Shown: piece after piece, positions 35,871-43,782 of the stretch
Layout of the letters: every line of letters starts with the position of its first letter
How positions within the stretch are numbered: position 1 is the first letter of the stretch
Assembly: GCF_000719775.1 (NCBI RefSeq)
Contig: NZ_JOHR01000023.1
Location: forward strand, 36,220-100,219
Length of the DNA: 64,000 nt
Direction: 5' to 3'
Source of the DNA: Streptomyces sp. NRRL F-5135
GTDB lineage: Bacteria > Actinomycetota > Actinomycetes > Streptomycetales > Streptomycetaceae
Made by a program: the position numbers and the translations under genes
The notes under the pieces: model-generated
What the model saw: the letters and a program-made list of their open reading frames with translations, nothing else
Told to the model about the DNA's origin: nothing
Database searches by the model: none

Positions 35871-36233
35871 GTGGTCCTCGTCGAAGAGGTCGCGGCATGG
35901 TTCGAAGCGCTGGCTGAGGATGACTGGGACAGCGCCGAACAGGTGGAAGACGCCATCGACATGCTGGCGACCACAGGTTCGACGCTCGGCCGCCCTCTGG
36001 TCGACCGGATCAAGGGCGCTGACAATCACCACTTGAAAGAGTTGAGACCAGGGTCGTCCGGGGGCAGCGAGATCCGGATCCTCTTCGCTTTCGATCCGGT
36101 GCGCCGGGCGGTCTTGCTGGTGGCCGGCGACAAGGCAGGCAACTGGCGGCAGTGGTACGACGTGAACATCCCGATTGCCGAGGAGCGCTATCAAGCGCAC
36201 CTGTCCGATCTTGAAACCAGGGAGTACGAATGA
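35871..36233 (+). CDS. HigB/RelE-like toxin of a type II toxin-antitoxin system
   Basis: 120 residues from GTG 35871, the first start codon in this frame after the TGA at 35802. The core GRPLVDRIKGADNHHLKELRPGSSGGSEIRILFAFDPVRRAVLLVAGDKAGNW is diagnostic of the HigB/Gp49 subgroup, ribosome-dependent mRNA interferases. Upstream in-frame codons read QWK, as homologues do (from memory), yet there is no start there. The nearby ATG 35864 is out of frame, so either GTG is used with no ribosome site or the N terminus has been altered. The antitoxin follows with an ATGA overlap: a toxin-first operon, as in higBA. Confidence 0.85.
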   Translation: MVLVEEVAAWFEALAEDDWDSAEQVEDAIDMLATTGSTLGRPLVDRIKGADNHHLKELRPGSSGGSEIRILFAFDPVRRAVLLVAGDKAGNWRQWYDVNIPIAEERYQAHLSDLETREYE

Positions 36234-36568
36234 GCACGGTCAGCTGGGAGGAGACCAGGCGTAAGGCTCGTGAGCGGCGTGAGGCCGCCGGCCTGCCGGT
36301 GCGATCGGCGGAGGAGAAGCGAGCAGCCATGGACAGGCTGACCGCGGAGGTGCGCGCGCACAAGCTCGCAGAGGTCCGGCGCGAGCAGGCGCTGACCCAG
36401 CGCCAGGTCGCTGCGTCGATGGGAGTCTCGGCGCCCCGTGTCTCCGCGATCGAGCACGGTGCACTGGACCGTGCGGAGGTCGCGACGCTCCGGGCATACG
36501 TGGAAGCGCTCGGCGGTCGGCTGCGTGTGGTCGCCGATTTCGGGGATGCGGAATACACCGTCGCCTGA
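36230..36568 (+). CDS. HigA-like antitoxin, XRE-family HTH protein
   Basis: 112 residues, ATG overlapping the toxin stop. The XRE HTH is in the C-terminal half (LTQRQVAASMGVSAPRVSAIEHG), after an acidic/basic helical N terminus. It ends GGRLRVVADFGDAEYTVA, a typical XRE antitoxin tail. It should neutralise the upstream toxin and repress the operon through the 24-bp inverted repeat. Confidence 0.88.
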   Translation: MSTVSWEETRRKARERREAAGLPVRSAEEKRAAMDRLTAEVRAHKLAEVRREQALTQRQVAASMGVSAPRVSAIEHGALDRAEVATLRAYVEALGGRLRVVADFGDAEYTVA

Positions 36569-36702
36569 GACGGGCCCCTCTCAGTGCCCTGCTACGGCCC
36601 GGGCCGCATCGCCCCGGGCCTGACGGCCGGCAGCGGGCCCACGCCATGAAATCGCCCCCGATCCGCGCCATAAGCGCTGGTCGGGAGCGTGGTCACGCTG
36701 CC

Positions 36703-36725
36703 TACTTCTTCTTGCCCTGGTTCTT
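36703..36725. repeat. Candidate attL core
   Basis: This 23-mer (starts TACTTCTTCTTGCC, ends TGGTTCTT) is identical to 43022-43044. Read on the minus strand it still encodes KNQGKKK followed by a TAG stop, the C terminus of gpmA. Confidence 0.75.
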
Positions 36726-36827
36726 TCCGGGGATCTTGGCGACCTGGGTTTTTGCTGGTCAGGGGCGGTGGGCTCGTGCACTTGGTGGTCGTCGTTTGTC
36801 GTCATTGGCCACTGTCGAGCGGCCTCG

Positions 36828-36848
36828 GACGGCCCAGAGACGGCCCAG
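36828..36848. repeat. Candidate integrase arm sites, left
   Basis: GACGGCCCAG at about 36828 and again at 36839, 11 bp apart, about 100 bp inside attL. The same paired layout occurs near attR at 42939-42959. Confidence 0.5.
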
Positions 36849-37315
36849 CCTTGGCGCGCTCGGCTGGCGGCCGGCACCTTCGATGCGACCCGTCTGAACC
36901 TCAGCCGGCGACAGTCAGCCACGACGTTGAGGACGCCGACCGACCATGCACGCGTATGCCTCGCTGCACCCCCACCGGCCTCAGCCACGCTGCCCTGTCG
37001 TCGATCAGAGGAAGCCGCGACGCCCGGTCCGTGGCTGCGACGCCTGAACCCTCAGCGGGGGAAGCTGTGCGCATCCGGCTAGATAAAGCGCTGCCTGGCG
37101 AGACGCCTCAGTCACCGCACTGTCGGTGTCGCTTGCCTCTACCGTGCTCCCCGCTGCCCCCGTGCGGAGTCGTGTGTCGCTTAGCGGATCGCGTTCCTGA
37201 GCCGCTTCACCACCGCCGCCACTTGTTCGTGAGCTGGTAGGACCGAGGGCCGTGACGTGCGGTCAAGTCACCCGGAGCTCCCGTAAGTGTCAGAGGAACA
37301 TGGAAACATGGAGTC

Positions 37316-39880
37316 GTGAGCGGTGTAGACACAGTCAGAGGTATTGCCTACCAGCAGGCACAGGCTGTCTTGGCGGCAGTAGGACTGCTTGAGGACCCAG
37401 CCCTCGGGAGCATCCGAGTGGAAGGCTCTGATGACGCCGTCGACATTGAGCTGTTCAACCGCGATGGGACCGTGCGACACGCCATGCAGGTCAAGGTGCG
37501 TGCCCCTGACTACACGTGGGGTGAAACGGCACTGCTTGCTGTCTTGAAACGTTGGGCAGTGCTCCCCGACGCCGAGCACGCGTCTTTCGAGTTCCTCACC
37601 GACGGCCGGCTCGGTCCCAGTGGCCAACGCGTACAGCAAGCACTTGAAGAGGCTGCGGAGGGGCGTACTGCTCCTCTTGCCCAACTCCTGGGAACGGGCA
37701 TCAGCGATGCCGTGTGCGTCGCGCTTGGAAGAGCGAGCATCCGCCAAGACCCGTACAACACTGGTGCGCTGCTGGTGCGCGCCGAGAGTCAGGTTGCCGA
37801 GATGCTCCCCTCTGCCCGGACAGAGGAAGATCTTCGACAGCAAGCCACTGGAGCCGTCGACCGCCTTTTCCGTGCCCTGTTCGACTACGCAAGCAACTCA
37901 GAGGCTCGACTACGTATAATTGACCGACAAATCGTTGCCGCTCTCCTCGGGGTACCAGCCAATCAAACACCCGCTCAGAGATGGCCAATCATCAAAGCGC
38001 GATACCTCGAAGTCGCTGCATCTCTCGGCGACCAGTGCGCAGTTACCCCAATAGTCACGAGCCTTGAGGGATCCCCCGGAGGGAATTCTCGGCAATCCGG
38101 CGATGGAGATACTCGGGATATTAACCAGCTCCTGAGAGGAATGGGACCAGCAGTACTGGCTGGCAGTACGGGTACTGGAAAGTCCACCGCAGTTCGGCTG
38201 TTGCGTCAGAAATCAGCCGCTGAGGGCAAGGCAGTCATCGTGGTCCATGCCGAGAGCTACCTACCAGGACGAATGGCTGCTCTCGCAGCGGACGGTATCG
38301 CTTCCGTCCTTGGGGAGCACTACCCAACGGCAACGGGCGAACAAGCTCTGTCGGATACTCAGGTCACCTTCGTCATCGACGGAGCTTCGGAAGTGGCAGA
38401 GTCTACGCGCCAGGCTCTCCATACGGATCTGCTTACATCTGTGGCCTCAGGGCATGGGGCACGGGTCGTGGTGGTGGGGAGGGACGTTGCGGCTCTGCGA
38501 GCCCTACTACCGAGCAGCGCGCTTCCGGCAGTTTATCGAATAGAGCCTCTCGATCACGAACGGCAGGTTGACCTGGCGAGGGAAAAACTCACCCAAGGCG
38601 CCATACCAGCGGAACCCGAAACTGCCTACGCCGCAGTTCGTACGGTTTGTGCATCACTCGGTGATGCGGCACGCAATCCGCTATTGTTCTCCATGGCTGT
38701 AACCATCCACACCTCACAAGCAAATAGGGGTAGGGCCGGACTCTATAAAGCGTTCATTGAGAAGCTCGCTGCCCGCAGTGGTGCCACGGGAATCTCTTTG
38801 GTGCGAACAGTCCTTGGAATTGTGTTCGTTCGCCTATTGAATGAGGGACGTCGCTACGCAGACCTGTACGAATGGCACAAGCTACTGATGGATGCCGTTG
38901 CGACCTTGCGCGAAAGCGGGTTGGTTGTTGATATCGCAGACATCGAAAGTGCCGCCCGCCGCTGTGGCCTGATCACAACGCTCGGCTGGGATCAGACCGT
39001 TGTGGCAATGCATGATTCGTTCGCCGACTATCTTGCAGGAGCGGCACATGCTAGCGGCGCTGCTCCTCTGCCTAGCAGGCTTACTGCGGGGGATGATCAA
39101 CGAATTCTCTTTTACGCAGAACTAAACGGTGTCGATCAGAAGCTAGCGGAGCTAGTCGCCAGGAATATCCCGTTTACCTCTGTCTCGCTATCCTCCTTCG
39201 ACTCTAGGCGGCTAGAGGAAGATGCTCCCGAATTGGTGGCTTCCCTTTTGAGTATGGTTTCCCAGGCGCAGGGACAAACTGTCGCCCTTTGTCTACTAAG
39301 CGACGACAGAGTGATGGCCGTCCGTCATCCAGGTCATAGGCCTAGCTGGATTGGGCAAGCACAAGCGCGAGAGCTGGCGCAGAGGTTCGGTGCAATTGTG
39401 GTTGATGCGACGGCCGGTCCCGCTACTGTGGCAATTAGGTTATGGCGAAAGGAAATGCAAGCACTACTCCATGCTCATTCTGCGCCAAAAATCCGGCGTC
39501 TAGCCTCTGGAGAAACTGCCTGTGAGGCGCTAACGGCGCATGCCAAGAAAACCGCCGACATTTCTCGTGACTTGATCGAAAGAGTCACACCCCCTGGCCA
39601 TGTTGAGATGCTAGCTGCACAAGTGGGCCCTCTAGGGTTGCACGCGGTTATTAGCCAAGAGGAGAATGGCCCCTTCGGGAGATTCCTACCCGTAAAGTAT
39701 CGGCGGGCGAGTGACATCCTTGTGCGAGTTGACTCCGAGTCAGGGAGCGGTATCGCGTCAGAGGGTGAAAGTTCCACGACGCTTGAGTACTTGCTGGATA
39801 AATCTCCTGCATCTACAGCGGCTGAACGCATCCAAAAGGCTATCGAAAGTTTGACAATCCAGGGATGGCTTGGCATGTGA
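37316..39880 (+). CDS. STAND/NACHT-like NTPase with N-terminal PD-(D/E)xK (Cap4/DUF4297-like) nuclease motif
   Basis: 854 residues from GTG 37316, the first start in frame, with a poor ribosome site. Residues 5-115 look like a restriction-type nuclease: RGIAYQQAQAVLAAVGLL, then VEGSDDAVDIELF (E36, D43) and MQVKV (Q58, K60). The D...QxK arrangement is that of Cap4-type dsDNA nucleases. A P-loop NTPase follows: Walker A GSTGTGKST (283-291), Walker B VTFVIDGASE (350-359), and a sensor-like VVVVGRDVAALRALLP. The remaining 400 residues are helical and unassigned, with no clear TPR or WD repeats. Base composition is far lower in GC than the neighbours, and there is a TTA codon at 39440-39442. Family logic suggests a sensor that, on detecting phage, assembles and cuts DNA. 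This is inference. It lies inside the gpmA-integrated element, followed by an unknown gene. Confidence 0.72.
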   Translation: MSGVDTVRGIAYQQAQAVLAAVGLLEDPALGSIRVEGSDDAVDIELFNRDGTVRHAMQVKVRAPDYTWGETALLAVLKRWAVLPDAEHASFEFLTDGRLGPSGQRVQQALEEAAEGRTAPLAQLLGTGISDAVCVALGRASIRQDPYNTGALLVRAESQVAEMLPSARTEEDLRQQATGAVDRLFRALFDYASNSEARLRIIDRQIVAALLGVPANQTPAQRWPIIKARYLEVAASLGDQCAVTPIVTSLEGSPGGNSRQSGDGDTRDINQLLRGMGPAVLAGSTGTGKSTAVRLLRQKSAAEGKAVIVVHAESYLPGRMAALAADGIASVLGEHYPTATGEQALSDTQVTFVIDGASEVAESTRQALHTDLLTSVASGHGARVVVVGRDVAALRALLPSSALPAVYRIEPLDHERQVDLAREKLTQGAIPAEPETAYAAVRTVCASLGDAARNPLLFSMAVTIHTSQANRGRAGLYKAFIEKLAARSGATGISLVRTVLGIVFVRLLNEGRRYADLYEWHKLLMDAVATLRESGLVVDIADIESAARRCGLITTLGWDQTVVAMHDSFADYLAGAAHASGAAPLPSRLTAGDDQRILFYAELNGVDQKLAELVARNIPFTSVSLSSFDSRRLEEDAPELVASLLSMVSQAQGQTVALCLLSDDRVMAVRHPGHRPSWIGQAQARELAQRFGAIVVDATAGPATVAIRLWRKEMQALLHAHSAPKIRRLASGETACEALTAHAKKTADISRDLIERVTPPGHVEMLAAQVGPLGLHAVISQEENGPFGRFLPVKYRRASDILVRVDSESGSGIASEGESSTTLEYLLDKSPASTAAERIQKAIESLTIQGWLGM

Positions 39881-39914
39881 TCGGAAACCCAGAGCAAAGA
39901 AGAGAGTGTATCGA

Positions 39915-40988
39915 ATGACCAACTCGCATATCTGGCGGGCGGTAACTCGGCAAGCTGCATTCTGGGCAGCGCTTCCGCTTGTTCAAGAGTTCGCGAAGCA
40001 ATTGCCGCGCAATGCCTCCACTCGCACTGCTGGAGTGCCAGAATATCTACAGGCGCTGCAGGCCAGTGGTGCCCAGATTGCGGCCACTCCCCTGCGACTT
40101 ACCGGGCTCGTGAGCGGATTCAGCGAGCTTGTCAAATCATTTGATGTCTCATACGACGAGAGTGATTTGCAGCGTTGGTTGCAGATGGCTGGTCAAGTAG
40201 AAATTGCTCATCGGGAAACTGTCGCTTGGTTGCGATCACGCATGCCTGGTTACCCGCAACTCCCCGCGCCTCAGCTTGCGCCCGGAACTCCTCTTACGAC
40301 CGTCGAGTTCACCTATCGACTCTCGTGGGGAGCCCAAGAACGAGCACAAGGCCTGCAACTGCAAGACGTTCCGTCAGGCGTTGCTCGTCGCTTGGGAGCC
40401 AATGCAAGTCAGGCTCATGGTCTCGGCGAGGCCGCTCGTGCGCTTGCCTCAACGTTGCGGTCAAGTGAGGAATGGTCGCGTCTCGGTGTGGCCCGCAGCG
40501 CTCTAGGTGCTGCTGATCGGGAGGCTCTCCGGGACACGCGCGCTCGGGTGAGACAACGGCTTAGTCCCAGCATGATTGATGCGCACGAGCCTCATCGCGC
40601 TTTGCCGCGGCACGACTATCGATGTGCTGTCTTGAAAGAAGAGCTGGACACTCTAACTGGCCAGGCTCGAGAATTCGCAGACGCCTTCGATGCCGCAGAC
40701 GAGCTAGTCGAACTCGCGGCTAGCGATGTGTTTGGCCAACTCGCCGTTTATGGATTCCCGGTAAATCTCGGGAGAGTTGCAGAAATTGACCTGGAACCCG
40801 GAGCCATCCAGTATGCTTCGTTCACCCTTCCCGGTGACACATGGCTTGAACCCGGATGTCTGATCCGGATCGACGATTCGCTCATCGCCGACACCATGCT
40901 TATGGTCGGTGGATCCTTCAGCTTCGGAAGCACGTCTAGGACTCGCATTCGGGCGCGCGTGCTGCCCGGTACTTCCTCTGTCTGGTAG
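39915..40988 (+). CDS. Unknown 357-aa partner protein of the STAND gene
   Basis: Start ATG 39915, with GAAGAGAG just upstream. TTG 39870, overlapping the previous stop, is an alternative. It is only 34 nt after the STAND gene, with the same lower-GC composition, so the two are one operon. The N-terminal 290 residues appear helical (AAFWAALPLVQEFAKQLPR, LQRWLQMAGQVEIAHRETV). The last 70 are beta-rich (VAEIDLEPGAIQYASFTLPG, DTMLMVGGSFSFG). No signal peptide, membrane helix, catalytic motif or known domain was recognised. It could be a target sensor, a regulator of the nuclease or a second effector. Confidence 0.6.
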   Translation: MTNSHIWRAVTRQAAFWAALPLVQEFAKQLPRNASTRTAGVPEYLQALQASGAQIAATPLRLTGLVSGFSELVKSFDVSYDESDLQRWLQMAGQVEIAHRETVAWLRSRMPGYPQLPAPQLAPGTPLTTVEFTYRLSWGAQERAQGLQLQDVPSGVARRLGANASQAHGLGEAARALASTLRSSEEWSRLGVARSALGAADREALRDTRARVRQRLSPSMIDAHEPHRALPRHDYRCAVLKEELDTLTGQAREFADAFDAADELVELAASDVFGQLAVYGFPVNLGRVAEIDLEPGAIQYASFTLPGDTWLEPGCLIRIDDSLIADTMLMVGGSFSFGSTSRTRIRARVLPGTSSVW

Positions 40989-41007
40989 GCCCACCCGTCA
41001 TAGCGCG

Positions 41008-41187
41008 TCAACGTACATGTATGTCGGCGAAGCGGATTTGGGGTGGCGCCGCTTTGGCGCGAGTGATCATGGTCTCGTTGGAGTCATGATCTTCGAGGCT
41101 CGCGCCGAAGTGGCTCCGTAAAGCCGTGGAGCCGACCGCCCTAGCCACGACGTACCCCTTCTCTGGCATCAGGCGGCTGATCGTCAT
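41008..41187 (-). CDS. Possible small protein, 59 aa, unknown
   Basis: ATG 41187 to TGA 41008. The peptide MTISRLMPEKGYVVARAVG and the ending AAPPQIRFADIHVR look protein-like, and codon third positions are G/C-biased. No ribosome site is visible and the frame stays open upstream, so it may be the 3' remnant of a longer gene. It lies in the scrambled segment between the cargo and the IS481 fragment. Confidence 0.3.
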   Translation of the reverse strand: MTISRLMPEKGYVVARAVGSTALRSHFGASLEDHDSNETMITRAKAAPPQIRFADIHVR

Positions 41188-41331
41188 GAGCGCGGCACGG
41201 GCGCCGGCCGGGCTGGAGCGGGGCGGAGACAGGAGCGCAGGCCCGGCCGGGAGCCGGGCCGCGCGCGGTGAGCGGAGCGAGCCGCCTTGAACCAGTAGAG
41301 AAAGTTGTAACTCAGTCTGTCGCGTGAGGCT

Positions 41332-41853
41332 TGTCCGGTCCCGGGAGATGCTTGACACTCCGGTCCCAGCTGATGGTTGACAGTGGCCGTGATCGGCTTT
41401 TCTGTGCACGTCGTTGCGGCGTGTGGCAGGAGGCCGGGATTGGCGCTGGTGGAGTTGTCGGTTGTCGAGCAGAGATACCGGGCGGTCCTGGCCGTGCTGG
41501 CGGGTGCGACCGTGACCGAGGTCGCCGCTCAGTTGGGGGTCTCGCGGCAGACGGTGAGCGGGTGGAAGTCGCGGTATGCGGCCGCGGGCCTGGCAGGTCT
41601 GGCGGACCGTTCTCGCAGGCCAGCCTCGTGTCCGCATCAGGTGTCCGCCGAGGTGGAAGCGACCGTGTGTGAGCTGCGGCGCAAGCATCCTCGGTGGGGT
41701 CCGCGGCGGATCGCTCATGTGCTGGAGCGGTCCGGGACGGTGGCGCCGGTGCCGTCGCGGATGACCGTGTATCGGATCCTGGTCCGCCATGGGCTGGTCG
41801 AGCCGGGGGTCCGGCGCCGGAAGCGGTGGGATTACAAGCGCTGGCAACGCGAC
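41332..41853 (+). mobile_element. IS481-family insertion sequence remnant (left end and 5' half of transposase)
   Basis: The transposase N-terminal half begins at TTG 41440. The sequence upstream from about 41332 (TGTCCGGTCCC, with TCCGGTCCC and TTGACA each repeated once) may be the IS left end. The DDE catalytic domain and the right end are missing: homology stops at the fusion with the integrase near 41853. The left boundary is an estimate. Confidence 0.6.
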
Positions 41854-42303
41854 GTGCCGCTTCCCGGCCCTGTCGCCGATGCGCTCCGGGTGCACATGAA
41901 GCGGTTCCCGCCGGTCGAGATCACCTTGCCGTGGAAGGTCGCCGACGGTCCTCCGGTGACCAAGCGGCTCATCTTCACCGGGCCGCGCGGCGGACACGTC
42001 TGGCGGACGTCTCTCAACGAGGAGGCGTGGAAGCCTGCGCTGGCTGCGGCGGGCGTCATCCCCGTGCCCGAGCGGGGCCGGCAGTACGCCGAGTCCCGCG
42101 AGAACGGCATGCACGCCCTCCGCCACTTCTACGCCTCGGTGCTTCTGGACGCGGGGGAGAACATCAAGGCCTTGGCCGAGTACCTCGGCCACTCCGATCC
42201 GGGCCTAACGCTCCGCGTCTACGCGCACCTGATGCCGTCCAGCCAGGAGCGGACTCGCAAGGCCGTGGCTGCAATCTTCGAAACGGTCCCGCCGGAAGTC
42301 TGA
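41440..42303 (+). pseudogene. Chimeric ORF: IS481 transposase N-terminal half fused in frame to tyrosine integrase C-terminal half
   Basis: The open frame has 287 codons from TTG 41440 (AGGAGG 6 nt upstream). The first 138 residues are IS481-like: ALVELSVVEQRYRAVLAVLAG, an HTH VTEVAAQLGVSRQTVSGWKS, LADRSRRPASCPHQ and a second HTH region to KRWDYKRWQRD. From VPLPGPVADALRVHMKRFPP onward it is an actinobacterial phage-type integrase: LIFTGPRGGHVWRTSLN, the RHxxR-box piece MHALRHFYASVLLDAGENIKAL, and the catalytic Tyr in LGHSDPGLTLRVYAHLMP. The integrase lacks its arm-binding and core-binding domains and the first catalytic Arg region. The transposase lacks its DDE triad. Neither can work, though the hybrid keeps both HTHs and could still be expressed. 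Confidence 0.8.
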
Positions 42304-42735
42304 CGGTCAAGGCCGTTGACCGCTGATGTTTAGTCAGTCTGACGATAGAGGCGAGCGATCACCAAGCCGTGACGTCCATCACACTTAGCCGATTGAATTG
42401 CGCACATTGCCTCGCTGGAACCGCGTCAAGCCAGGCTCCCAAACGTGGTAGATACTGCGGCGAAAATCGCGTAGCGGAACTCGGTAGACGCTCCCGGGGT
42501 GGCACCGAAGAGCGCCGGTCGCGGCGCTGGCATCTGAGGCCCGTTCGCTGAGATCCCGCGAATCCTAAGCGGAAAGTCTGGTTGAGCCCGCACGGAAGCA
42601 TCCTTCCGCGGCGACTCGAATAAAGTGGCCCTGAGCTGCGGAAACGCAAGATTTGACCTAGTTGCGGACTGTATGGCGGAGGAGGGACGCTGCCTTCCGG
42701 GCGCAACACCGCGTACCACTCCACAGGGGGGTTCC
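42304..42735. other. Gap between the integrase fragment and the small membrane protein
   Basis: 432 bp, lower in GC than the chromosome, without a supportable gene. The stretch AGCGGAACTCGGTAGACGCT near 42472 resembles part of a tRNA-Leu D arm, but no cloverleaf can be drawn. Otherwise nothing is seen. Confidence 0.4.
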
Positions 42736-42885
42736 ATGTCCGAGGTAGTCGCGGCTGTGATCGGCGCAGCCGGAGCTGTCATAGCCGCCTGGATCATGCG
42801 GCCGATCCGGGCAAAGCAGGTAGCCAAAGTCGACCACACCAGCGGTCCAGATCAGGTTTCCGTCAGTTATCAATCAAGGAGGTGA
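42736..42885 (+). CDS. Small single-pass membrane protein (49 aa)
   Basis: ATG 42736 preceded by AGGGGGG 6 nt upstream. Residues 4-21 (VVAAVIGAAGAVIAAWIM) form one membrane helix. A basic Arg/Lys segment and a polar tail ending YQSRR follow. It lies between the integrase fragment and attR. It could be a small excision/maintenance gene product, a toxin-like peptide or a chance frame. No family recognised. Confidence 0.45.
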   Translation: MSEVVAAVIGAAGAVIAAWIMRPIRAKQVAKVDHTSGPDQVSVSYQSRR

Positions 42886-42938
42886 CATAGGAGGGTGCCG
42901 AGGCGCCAGCCTGCTGTCTAACGAGCGGATGCACCATC

Positions 42939-42959
42939 GACGGCCCCACGACGGCCCAG
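42939..42959. repeat. Candidate integrase arm sites, right
   Basis: GACGGCCCCA at 42939 and GACGGCCCAG at 42950, again 11 bp apart, about 60 bp inside attR. Same unit, spacing and orientation as the left pair. Confidence 0.5.
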
Positions 42960-42969
42960 GTGCACTGAA

Positions 42970-43008
42970 AAGCCCCCTTCCAGCGGAGAAACCGCAGGCA
43001 GGGGGCTT
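42970..43008. terminator. Terminator downstream of gpmA
   Basis: AAGCCCCCT (42970-42978) pairs with AGGGGGCTT (43000-43008), with an inner GCGG/CCGC stem. It lies 13 nt beyond the gpmA stop and on the element side of attR, so the element may have brought it. Confidence 0.75.
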
Positions 43009-43020
43009 ACTCGTGGGCGC

Positions 43021-43782
43021 TTACTTCTTCTTGCCCTGGTTCTTGACCGCCTCGATCGCGGCCGCCGCCGCGTCCGGGTCCAGGTAGGTGCCGCCCGGGT
43101 TGGTGGGGCGGAAGTCCGCGTCCAGTTCGTACAGGAGCGGGATGCCGGTGGGGATGTTCAGGCCCGCGATGTCGGCGTCGGAGATGCCGTCGAGGTGCTT
43201 GACCAGGGCGCGCAGGCTGTTGCCGTGGGCGGCGATCAGGACCGTGCGGCCGGTGAGCAGGTCCGGTACGACGGCGTCGTACCAGTACGGGAGCATCCGC
43301 TCGACGACGTCCTTGAGGCACTCGGTGCGCGGGCGGAGCTCGCTCGGGATCGTGGCGTAGCGCGGGTCGTCGCTCTGCGAGAACTCCGTGCCGTCGGCCA
43401 GCTCGGGCGGCGGGGTGTCGTACGAGCGGCGCCACAGCATGAACTGCTCCTCGCCGAACTCGGCGAGCGTCTGGGCCTTGTCCTTGCCCTGGAGGGCGCC
43501 GTAGTGGCGCTCGTTCAGGCGCCAGGAGCGGTGGACCGGGATCCAGTGGCGGTCGGCGGACTCCAGGGCGAGCTGCGCGGTGCGGATCGCGCGCTTCTGT
43601 ACGGAGGTGTGCAGCACGTCGGGCAGCAGGCCGGCGTCCTTGAGCAGCTCACCGCCGCGGATCGCCTCCTTCTCGCCCTTGTCCGTGAGGTTCACGTCCA
43701 CCCAGCCGGTGAACAGGTTCTTCGCGTTCCACTCGCTCTCGCCGTGGCGGAGGAGGATCAGCTTGTACGGTGCGTCGGCCAT
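43021..43782 (-). CDS. gpmA: 2,3-bisphosphoglycerate-dependent phosphoglycerate mutase
   Basis: 253 residues. The phosphohistidine motif is [15 protein letters not shown] near residue 8, followed by [35 protein letters not shown] and the second catalytic His in [16 protein letters not shown]. It interconverts 3- and 2-phosphoglycerate in glycolysis. The last codons KNQGKKK form the attR core of the integrative element, and the stop is preserved as TAA, so enzyme function should be intact. Confidence 0.97.
43022..43044. repeat. Candidate attR core (3' end of gpmA)
   Basis: Exact match to 36703-36725 over 23 bp in the same orientation. It includes most of the gpmA stop codon. Confidence 0.75.

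Follow-up and report, generated by a model that had tools for sequence, protein, structure and literature searches.

Bacterial NLR-like (nucleotide-binding, leucine-rich repeat-like) proteins are described in the consulted part of PMC12169576 as single chains that hold effector, switch, and sensor together. According to the same sections, bNACHT25 and bNACHT32 (clade 6) carry an N-terminal PD-(D/E)XK DNase and a central NACHT module, protection depends on their nuclease residue D48, and DNA is degraded upon infection. The window analyzed here is a stretch of 64,000 bp (positions 36220 to 100219 of contig 23) from the 8.02-Mb genome of Streptomyces sp. NRRL F-5135. It contains a gene pair, noted as a candidate antiphage system in an initial annotation made from the sequence alone, in which gene 1 encodes a protein of the bNACHT25/32 layout and gene 2 a partner protein. 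By description, the two cases differ in that those sections of PMC12169576 mention no partner gene for bNACHT25/32, whereas gene 2 was linked to gene 1 in every locus that we examined. Nuclease-NACHT defense proteins are already known, and DefensePredictor (PMC13092281, in part) validated systems with PD-(D/E)XK or NACHT domains, its tables lying outside the comparison made here; the pair appears to be a variant of these with an obligate partner. The literature searched, with supplements and most subscription work outside it, yielded no nuclease-NACHT protein with such a partner, and PADLOC-DB holds no close model for gene 1 or gene 2.

Avs3 (of the AVAST systems, antiviral ATPases/NTPases of the STAND superfamily) has a large C-terminal repeat sensor, and its chains reach 2,004 to 2,028 residues, in contrast to 854 for gene 1, whose predicted model has no repeat solenoid. 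The NAIP-NLRC4 inflammasome follows a two-protein receptor logic to which the present pair would be analogous; the gene 1 NACHT module is closest to NLRC4, but gene 2 does not encode a NACHT protein, and we claim no homology. The partners in DUF4297-HerA, Hachiman HamA, and Lamassu LmuA are ATPases or helicases, whereas in the present pair nuclease and ATPase share one chain, and gene 2, unlike the HerA-type ATPase, has no P-loop or ATPase domain (Pfam at E ≤ 1). In the cyclic oligonucleotide-based antiphage signaling system (CBASS), the title of the Cap4 structure names a fusion to a SAVED/CARF receptor, while the gene 1 nuclease is fused to NACHT.

Gene pair and predicted proteins

Both open reading frames (ORFs) of the initial annotation, of 854 and 357 residues, lie where it had placed them.

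37316-39880, + strand: gene 1, GTG start, 854 residues (P0001), Cap4-type nuclease plus NACHT STAND NTPase
37316-37957, + strand: nuclease domain, residues ~1-214, with E36, D40, D43, E45, Q58, and K60
37964-39265, + strand: NACHT module, residues ~217-650, with Walker A K289, D355, R389-D390, and an HDSFADYL motif from residue 566
39266-39877, + strand: C-terminal alpha/beta region, residues ~651-854, from the secondary structure of the predicted model; no Pfam match there
39915-40988, + strand: gene 2, ATG start, 357 residues (P0002), partner protein
40401-40754, + strand: partner residues 163-280, predicted helical, weakly like YlbF/YmcA (RicA/RicF)
40752-40985, + strand: partner residues 280-357, predicted six-stranded beta-barrel, resembling phage baseplate-hub barrels and, to a lesser degree, the HerA HAS barrel

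The gene 1 stop codon and the gene 2 ATG are 34 nt apart. A 372-residue form of gene 2 with a TTG start, given by the mechanical ORF list, was rejected; the ATG at 39915 fits the consensus of 59 homologs. Neither gene is a chance ORF, because 72 proteins matched gene 1 and 58 matched gene 2 at E ≤ 0.001 (query coverage, 61 to 100%). Mean column identity was 48% for gene 1 (72 alignment rows, from which P0033, a 537-residue match, was omitted) and 49% for gene 2 (59 rows). The pair is a low-GC island, as first described, with 58.0% GC versus 72.1% in the remaining window.

The nuclease and P-loop motifs reported initially are present. The first reads E36-G-S-D-D40-A-V-D43-I-E45 ... Q58-V-K60, and the predicted model and alignment place at the gene 1 N terminus a PD-(D/E)xK core with the conserved D...Q/ExK that is a feature of the Cap4/DUF4297 superfamily. 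The nuclease fold expected from the motif was thus recovered by structure prediction, and its residues are intact in 70 of 72 aligned gene 1 homologs. The P-loop reads G283-S-T-G-T-G-K289-S and the acidic motif F-V-I-D355-G. Where the initial annotation had proposed a STAND NTPase, the P-loop NTPase stood and could be specified as a NACHT module through the fold of the predicted model, which matches NLRC4, NLRP3, and NOD2, with NLRC4 closest. K289, D355, and HDSFADYL are conserved among the homologs, and the Walker A/B and winged-helix motifs of bacterial NACHT proteins are present. The Pfam NACHT score of P0001 was 24.5 bits, under the cut-off of 26.7, and precomputed annotation lists Pfam NACHT on the closest relatives, P0003 and P0004.

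The helices of the gene 1 model end near residue 648, with mixed alpha/beta structure beyond. No TPR match (Pfam at E ≤ 1) or repeat solenoid (predicted model) was found, in agreement with the earlier observation that gene 1 is much shorter than Avs proteins and free of visible sensor repeats. The same Pfam list showed no NCH match at E ≤ 1, the presence of an NCH1 model in that Pfam copy being unchecked. The partner, said from the outset to be without a recognized domain, matched nothing in Pfam, NCBIfam, or PADLOC at E ≤ 1.

Joint inheritance and distribution

Comparison across genomes shows that gene 1 and gene 2 are a unit of inheritance. Scanning the collection with the gene 1 alignment through two peptide patterns, a non-exhaustive search that missed genome G923, confirmed 21 gene 1 loci, all Actinomycetota by record title and at 29 to 65% identity, and gene 2 lay directly downstream on the same strand in 21/21. 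With the window, plasmid pKRAD01 of Kineococcus radiotolerans, and G923 (locus L087, reached from the gene 2 side), the genes adjoin in 24/24 loci, so the co-occurrence proposed initially holds in other genomes. A compact switch-nuclease protein travels with one partner in every locus examined. In 19 pairs besides the window, the distance from the end of the last sense codon of gene 1 to the start of gene 2 ranges from −10 to 56 nt (negative where gene 2 begins earlier), values that are approximate, as a script chose the starts. Distance matrices of the two proteins over 20 pairs correlated at r 0.97, and none of 9,999 shuffles reached as high; this test covered 20 of the 24 loci, the exceptions being L005, where the gene is interrupted, L017, whose frame is split, L019, whose partner runs off the contig, and L087.

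The pair is rare and patchy. Full-length gene 1 occurred in 2 of 295 Streptomyces genomes and, the same 2 again, among 396 genomes of the phylum, with gene 2 in those 2 each time. At E ≤ 0.001 the gene 1 profile matches 131 of those 295 Streptomyces genomes, but full length in 2, and the majority of the matches listed are confined to the NTPase part. Gene 2 was found in 4 of 394 Streptomycetaceae, and gene 1 adjoined it in all 4: the window genome (G000), Streptomyces aureus NRRL B-1941 (G095, locus L003), G755 (L002), and G923. A gene 2 profile search gave 104 homologs from 7,995 candidates scored; those with an organism name were all Actinomycetota, and many had none. Pairs occur in Streptomyces, Kitasatospora, Nocardioides, Microbacterium, Arthrobacter, Frankia, and others, and pKRAD01 was the only match to either protein in 72,556 plasmid records. 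GC content of the module was at least 2 points under that of its flanks in 13 of 21 loci and not in the other 8 (20 of the scanned loci, without L005, plus L045).

Two loci carry altered gene 1 homologs. At L005:8001-14807, in Streptomyces antimicrobicus, ∼3 kb of other DNA interrupts the gene and the partner is retained; at L017:8001-10422, in Microbacterium barkeri, the homolog is in two reading frames and adjoins an IetAS-like pair.

Single-chain relatives

Four Streptomyces genomes (G249, G262, G180, and G162; loci L081 to L084) encode the gene 1 type of nuclease domain (E, 6.7e-30 to 2.9e-26; gene 1 profile positions 1-212 to 2-215 and 1-219) at the start of frames of 1,194 to 1,263 residues. 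By eye, the remainder of these chains looks like an NB-ARC-like NTPase and, beyond it, helical repeats. No gene 2 homolog lies near any of the four (11 to 11.5 kb around each). Repeat-bearing chains have no partner, and the repeat-free chain has one. On anatomical grounds, this contrast is the chief argument for a proposed sensing or licensing role of gene 2 in trans.

Defense genes near homologs

At E ≤ 1e-6, two sets of 99 neighbor proteins matched 142 and 101 PADLOC families, versus 72 for 99 control proteins. The neighbor sets took 198 of 200 listed proteins, however long, and totaled 33,844 and 31,781 residues (control, 34,823); the control was a random 99 of 169 eligible proteins (110 to 1,200 residues) from 13 hand-placed regions on contigs of 13 of the 21 genomes. 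Gene calls in these neighborhoods came from a simple script based on GC by codon position rather than from a standard gene finder. We also read singly 20 large neighbors, picked by size, from 12 of the 21 loci. Matches of >90 bits appeared in 5 of the 12: type IIG (L002), Orf5-type and PDC-S53 (L006), Orf5-type and a type I methyltransferase (L007), IetS (L017), and a type I restriction enzyme (L018). Only RecD-like matches of <60 bits were found in L013 and L021, and the large neighbors read in L003, L008, L009, L014, and L020 gave no match. The neighborhood supports a defense role but would not establish it.

Proposed mode of action and alternatives

We propose that the pair is a two-component NLR-like immune module in which gene 2 provides the trigger-sensing or licensing subunit, a reading to which we assign a probability of roughly 0.55; the pair is probably a defense against viruses or foreign DNA. 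By analogy with bNACHT25/32, gene 1 probably acts as a resting NACHT switch that keeps its N-terminal Cap4-type DNase inactive until it is released. Activation would involve ATP binding and oligomerization through the NACHT module, which would cluster and free the nuclease domains, so that DNA would be cut and the infected cell or the invader, phage or plasmid, stopped. Because gene 1 has no repeat sensor, gene 2, in the same operon, would most likely act positively as its dedicated subunit for sensing or licensing in trans. A contact between the partner barrel and the nuclease can be imagined here, since in DUF4297-HerA the C-terminal domain of the nuclease chain contacts the HerA HAS domain, according to part of its published description; this is a lead, not a result. 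What the analysis shows are the predicted domain folds, the conserved catalytic and Walker residues, the strict genetic linkage, and the location of the pair on a mobile element. Should the partner prove to be the sensor, sensing and switching would be separable and could be mutated and swapped, and infection recognition by bacterial NACHT proteins would become directly testable.

Several points weigh against this proposal. The partner fold has no significant structural match, so its sensing role is argued from anatomy alone, and in the four single-chain relatives the NTPase and repeats were assigned by eye, not by domain search. Linkage and matching trees demonstrate joint inheritance, not binding. 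PADLOC matches to gene 1 itself are weak (best E, 6e-4). The defense setting suggested in the initial annotation was upheld in part, as the neighborhood excess exists but is modest and carries no significance test; the control also contains strong generic matches (DpdF, PsyrT, and PD-T4-6), and 7 of the 12 loci read singly have no match of >90 bits. As a whole, that annotation is confirmed in its observation and partly supported in its interpretation.

The main rival, which we consider unlikely, makes the partner an inhibitor or immunity subunit that infection removes or displaces, in the manner of toxin-antitoxin or guard systems. We never saw gene 1 without gene 2, yet this fits inhibitor and sensor equally. 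A separate inhibitor is not required, as autoinhibition of NLRC4-type NACHT proteins takes place in cis (title of 4kxf).

It is distinctly unlikely that the module serves its mobile element against competing plasmids or actinomycete integrative and conjugative elements (AICEs) rather than acting against phages. Its place as cargo of a decayed AICE-like element (see below) and its presence on pKRAD01 speak for such a role. Among 21 other loci, with flanks of up to ∼8 kb, three had a match to the integrase of a fuller related element (L070) nearby and one a match to its transfer protein, other element types not being sought; the L070-type element is therefore not a constant companion. The molecular mechanism would be identical.

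A bolder version of the sensor proposal, to which we give long odds, treats the partner as molecular bait: its predicted C-terminal barrel would mimic a phage tail hub or tube barrel, and a docking phage tail or assembly factor would trigger the NACHT nuclease. It would make the pair an NLR whose decoy is a separate bacterial protein, an equally improbable notion for which plant NLRs, with their decoy domains, offer a parallel.

A nondefense role, in which a STAND ATPase would serve multicellular actinomycetes as a regulator or as a switch in development, is very improbable: the partner weakly resembles YlbF/YmcA regulators and bacterial STAND proteins have been studied mostly as transcriptional regulators (PMC7159879, in part), but the nearly invariant nuclease residues, the patchy distribution, and the mobile location speak against it.

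The element at gpmA

A decayed AICE-like element spans 36703-43044, at the 3′ end of gpmA, and the pair sits in a cargo slot of it.

36703-36725: left 23-bp direct repeat, att-like, TACTTCTTCTTGCCCTGGTTCTT
43022-43044: right-hand repeat copy (23 bp), within the gpmA 3′ end
36645-37066: left border sequence, common to related elements with other cargo
41025-41333: inner border sequence, common to related elements with other cargo
41377-42303, + strand: remnant ORF, N-terminal part of an IS481-type transposase followed by a tyrosine integrase C-terminal end
43021-43782, - strand: gpmA (phosphoglycerate mutase), attachment gene of the element; His_Phos_1, 110.3 bits; gene name read from the sequence

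This placement follows from the presence of the repeats and the integrase remnant and from the same borders flanking other cargo elsewhere. In 20 shuffles of one side, the longest shared string was 9 to 13 bp. The remnant ORF matched HTH_32 (76.8 bits), LZ_Tnp_IS481 (23.6 bits), and, at residues 243-286, Phage_integrase (28.4 bits). Positions 41190-41853 have a 90% identical copy elsewhere in the genome, and 41848-42280 share 87% identity with the integrase region of L070. AICE features here are thus a truncated integrase end and att-type direct repeats, and no replication or FtsK-type transfer gene was recognized among the ORFs scanned, which were part of all. The integrative-element location proposed at first holds in its repeats and integrase end, but the element is decayed and the integrase truncated. 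Decayed AICEs with partial integrase, cargo, and direct repeats are described in PMC9513070, with predicted phage-protection genes among AICE cargo; in its main text, supplements aside, "Phosphoglycerate mutase" occurs 0 times.

Fuller integrase-bearing elements occupy the gpmA site in L070, L075, and L076. That of L070, from another Streptomyces, includes an integrase, a GntR regulator, and an FtsK-type transfer gene (118.6 bits); a repeat, of 20 bp in L070, is found at the corresponding places in L070 and L071. Border-bounded cargo was tested in four loci. Between the same borders, L070 carries a CapP-like metallopeptidase gene (73.6 bits) and a 718-residue protein, both at L070:11770-15900, as well as a 132-residue protein, neither of these two proteins having a Pfam match, L071 a gene without a match, L072 a transposase-type helix-turn-helix (HTH) gene, and L074 a DUF4365 protein (67.8 bits), with gpmA unmatched on its contig. 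At gpmA in L076, a PLD-SNF2 helicase resembling defense helicases (110.2 bits) lies on the side opposite the integrase, cut by the end of the stretch; the far end of this element falls outside the stretch examined, and the helicase is thus not placed inside it. The gpmA-site element is a place to seek further Streptomyces defense cargo.

Just outside the left repeat, at 35871-36568, we observed a toxin-antitoxin-like pair (Gp49/DUF891, 59.6 bits, and an HTH protein). Inside the element, beside the integrase remnant, 42736-42885 holds a 49-codon ORF whose N terminus appears hydrophobic by eye.
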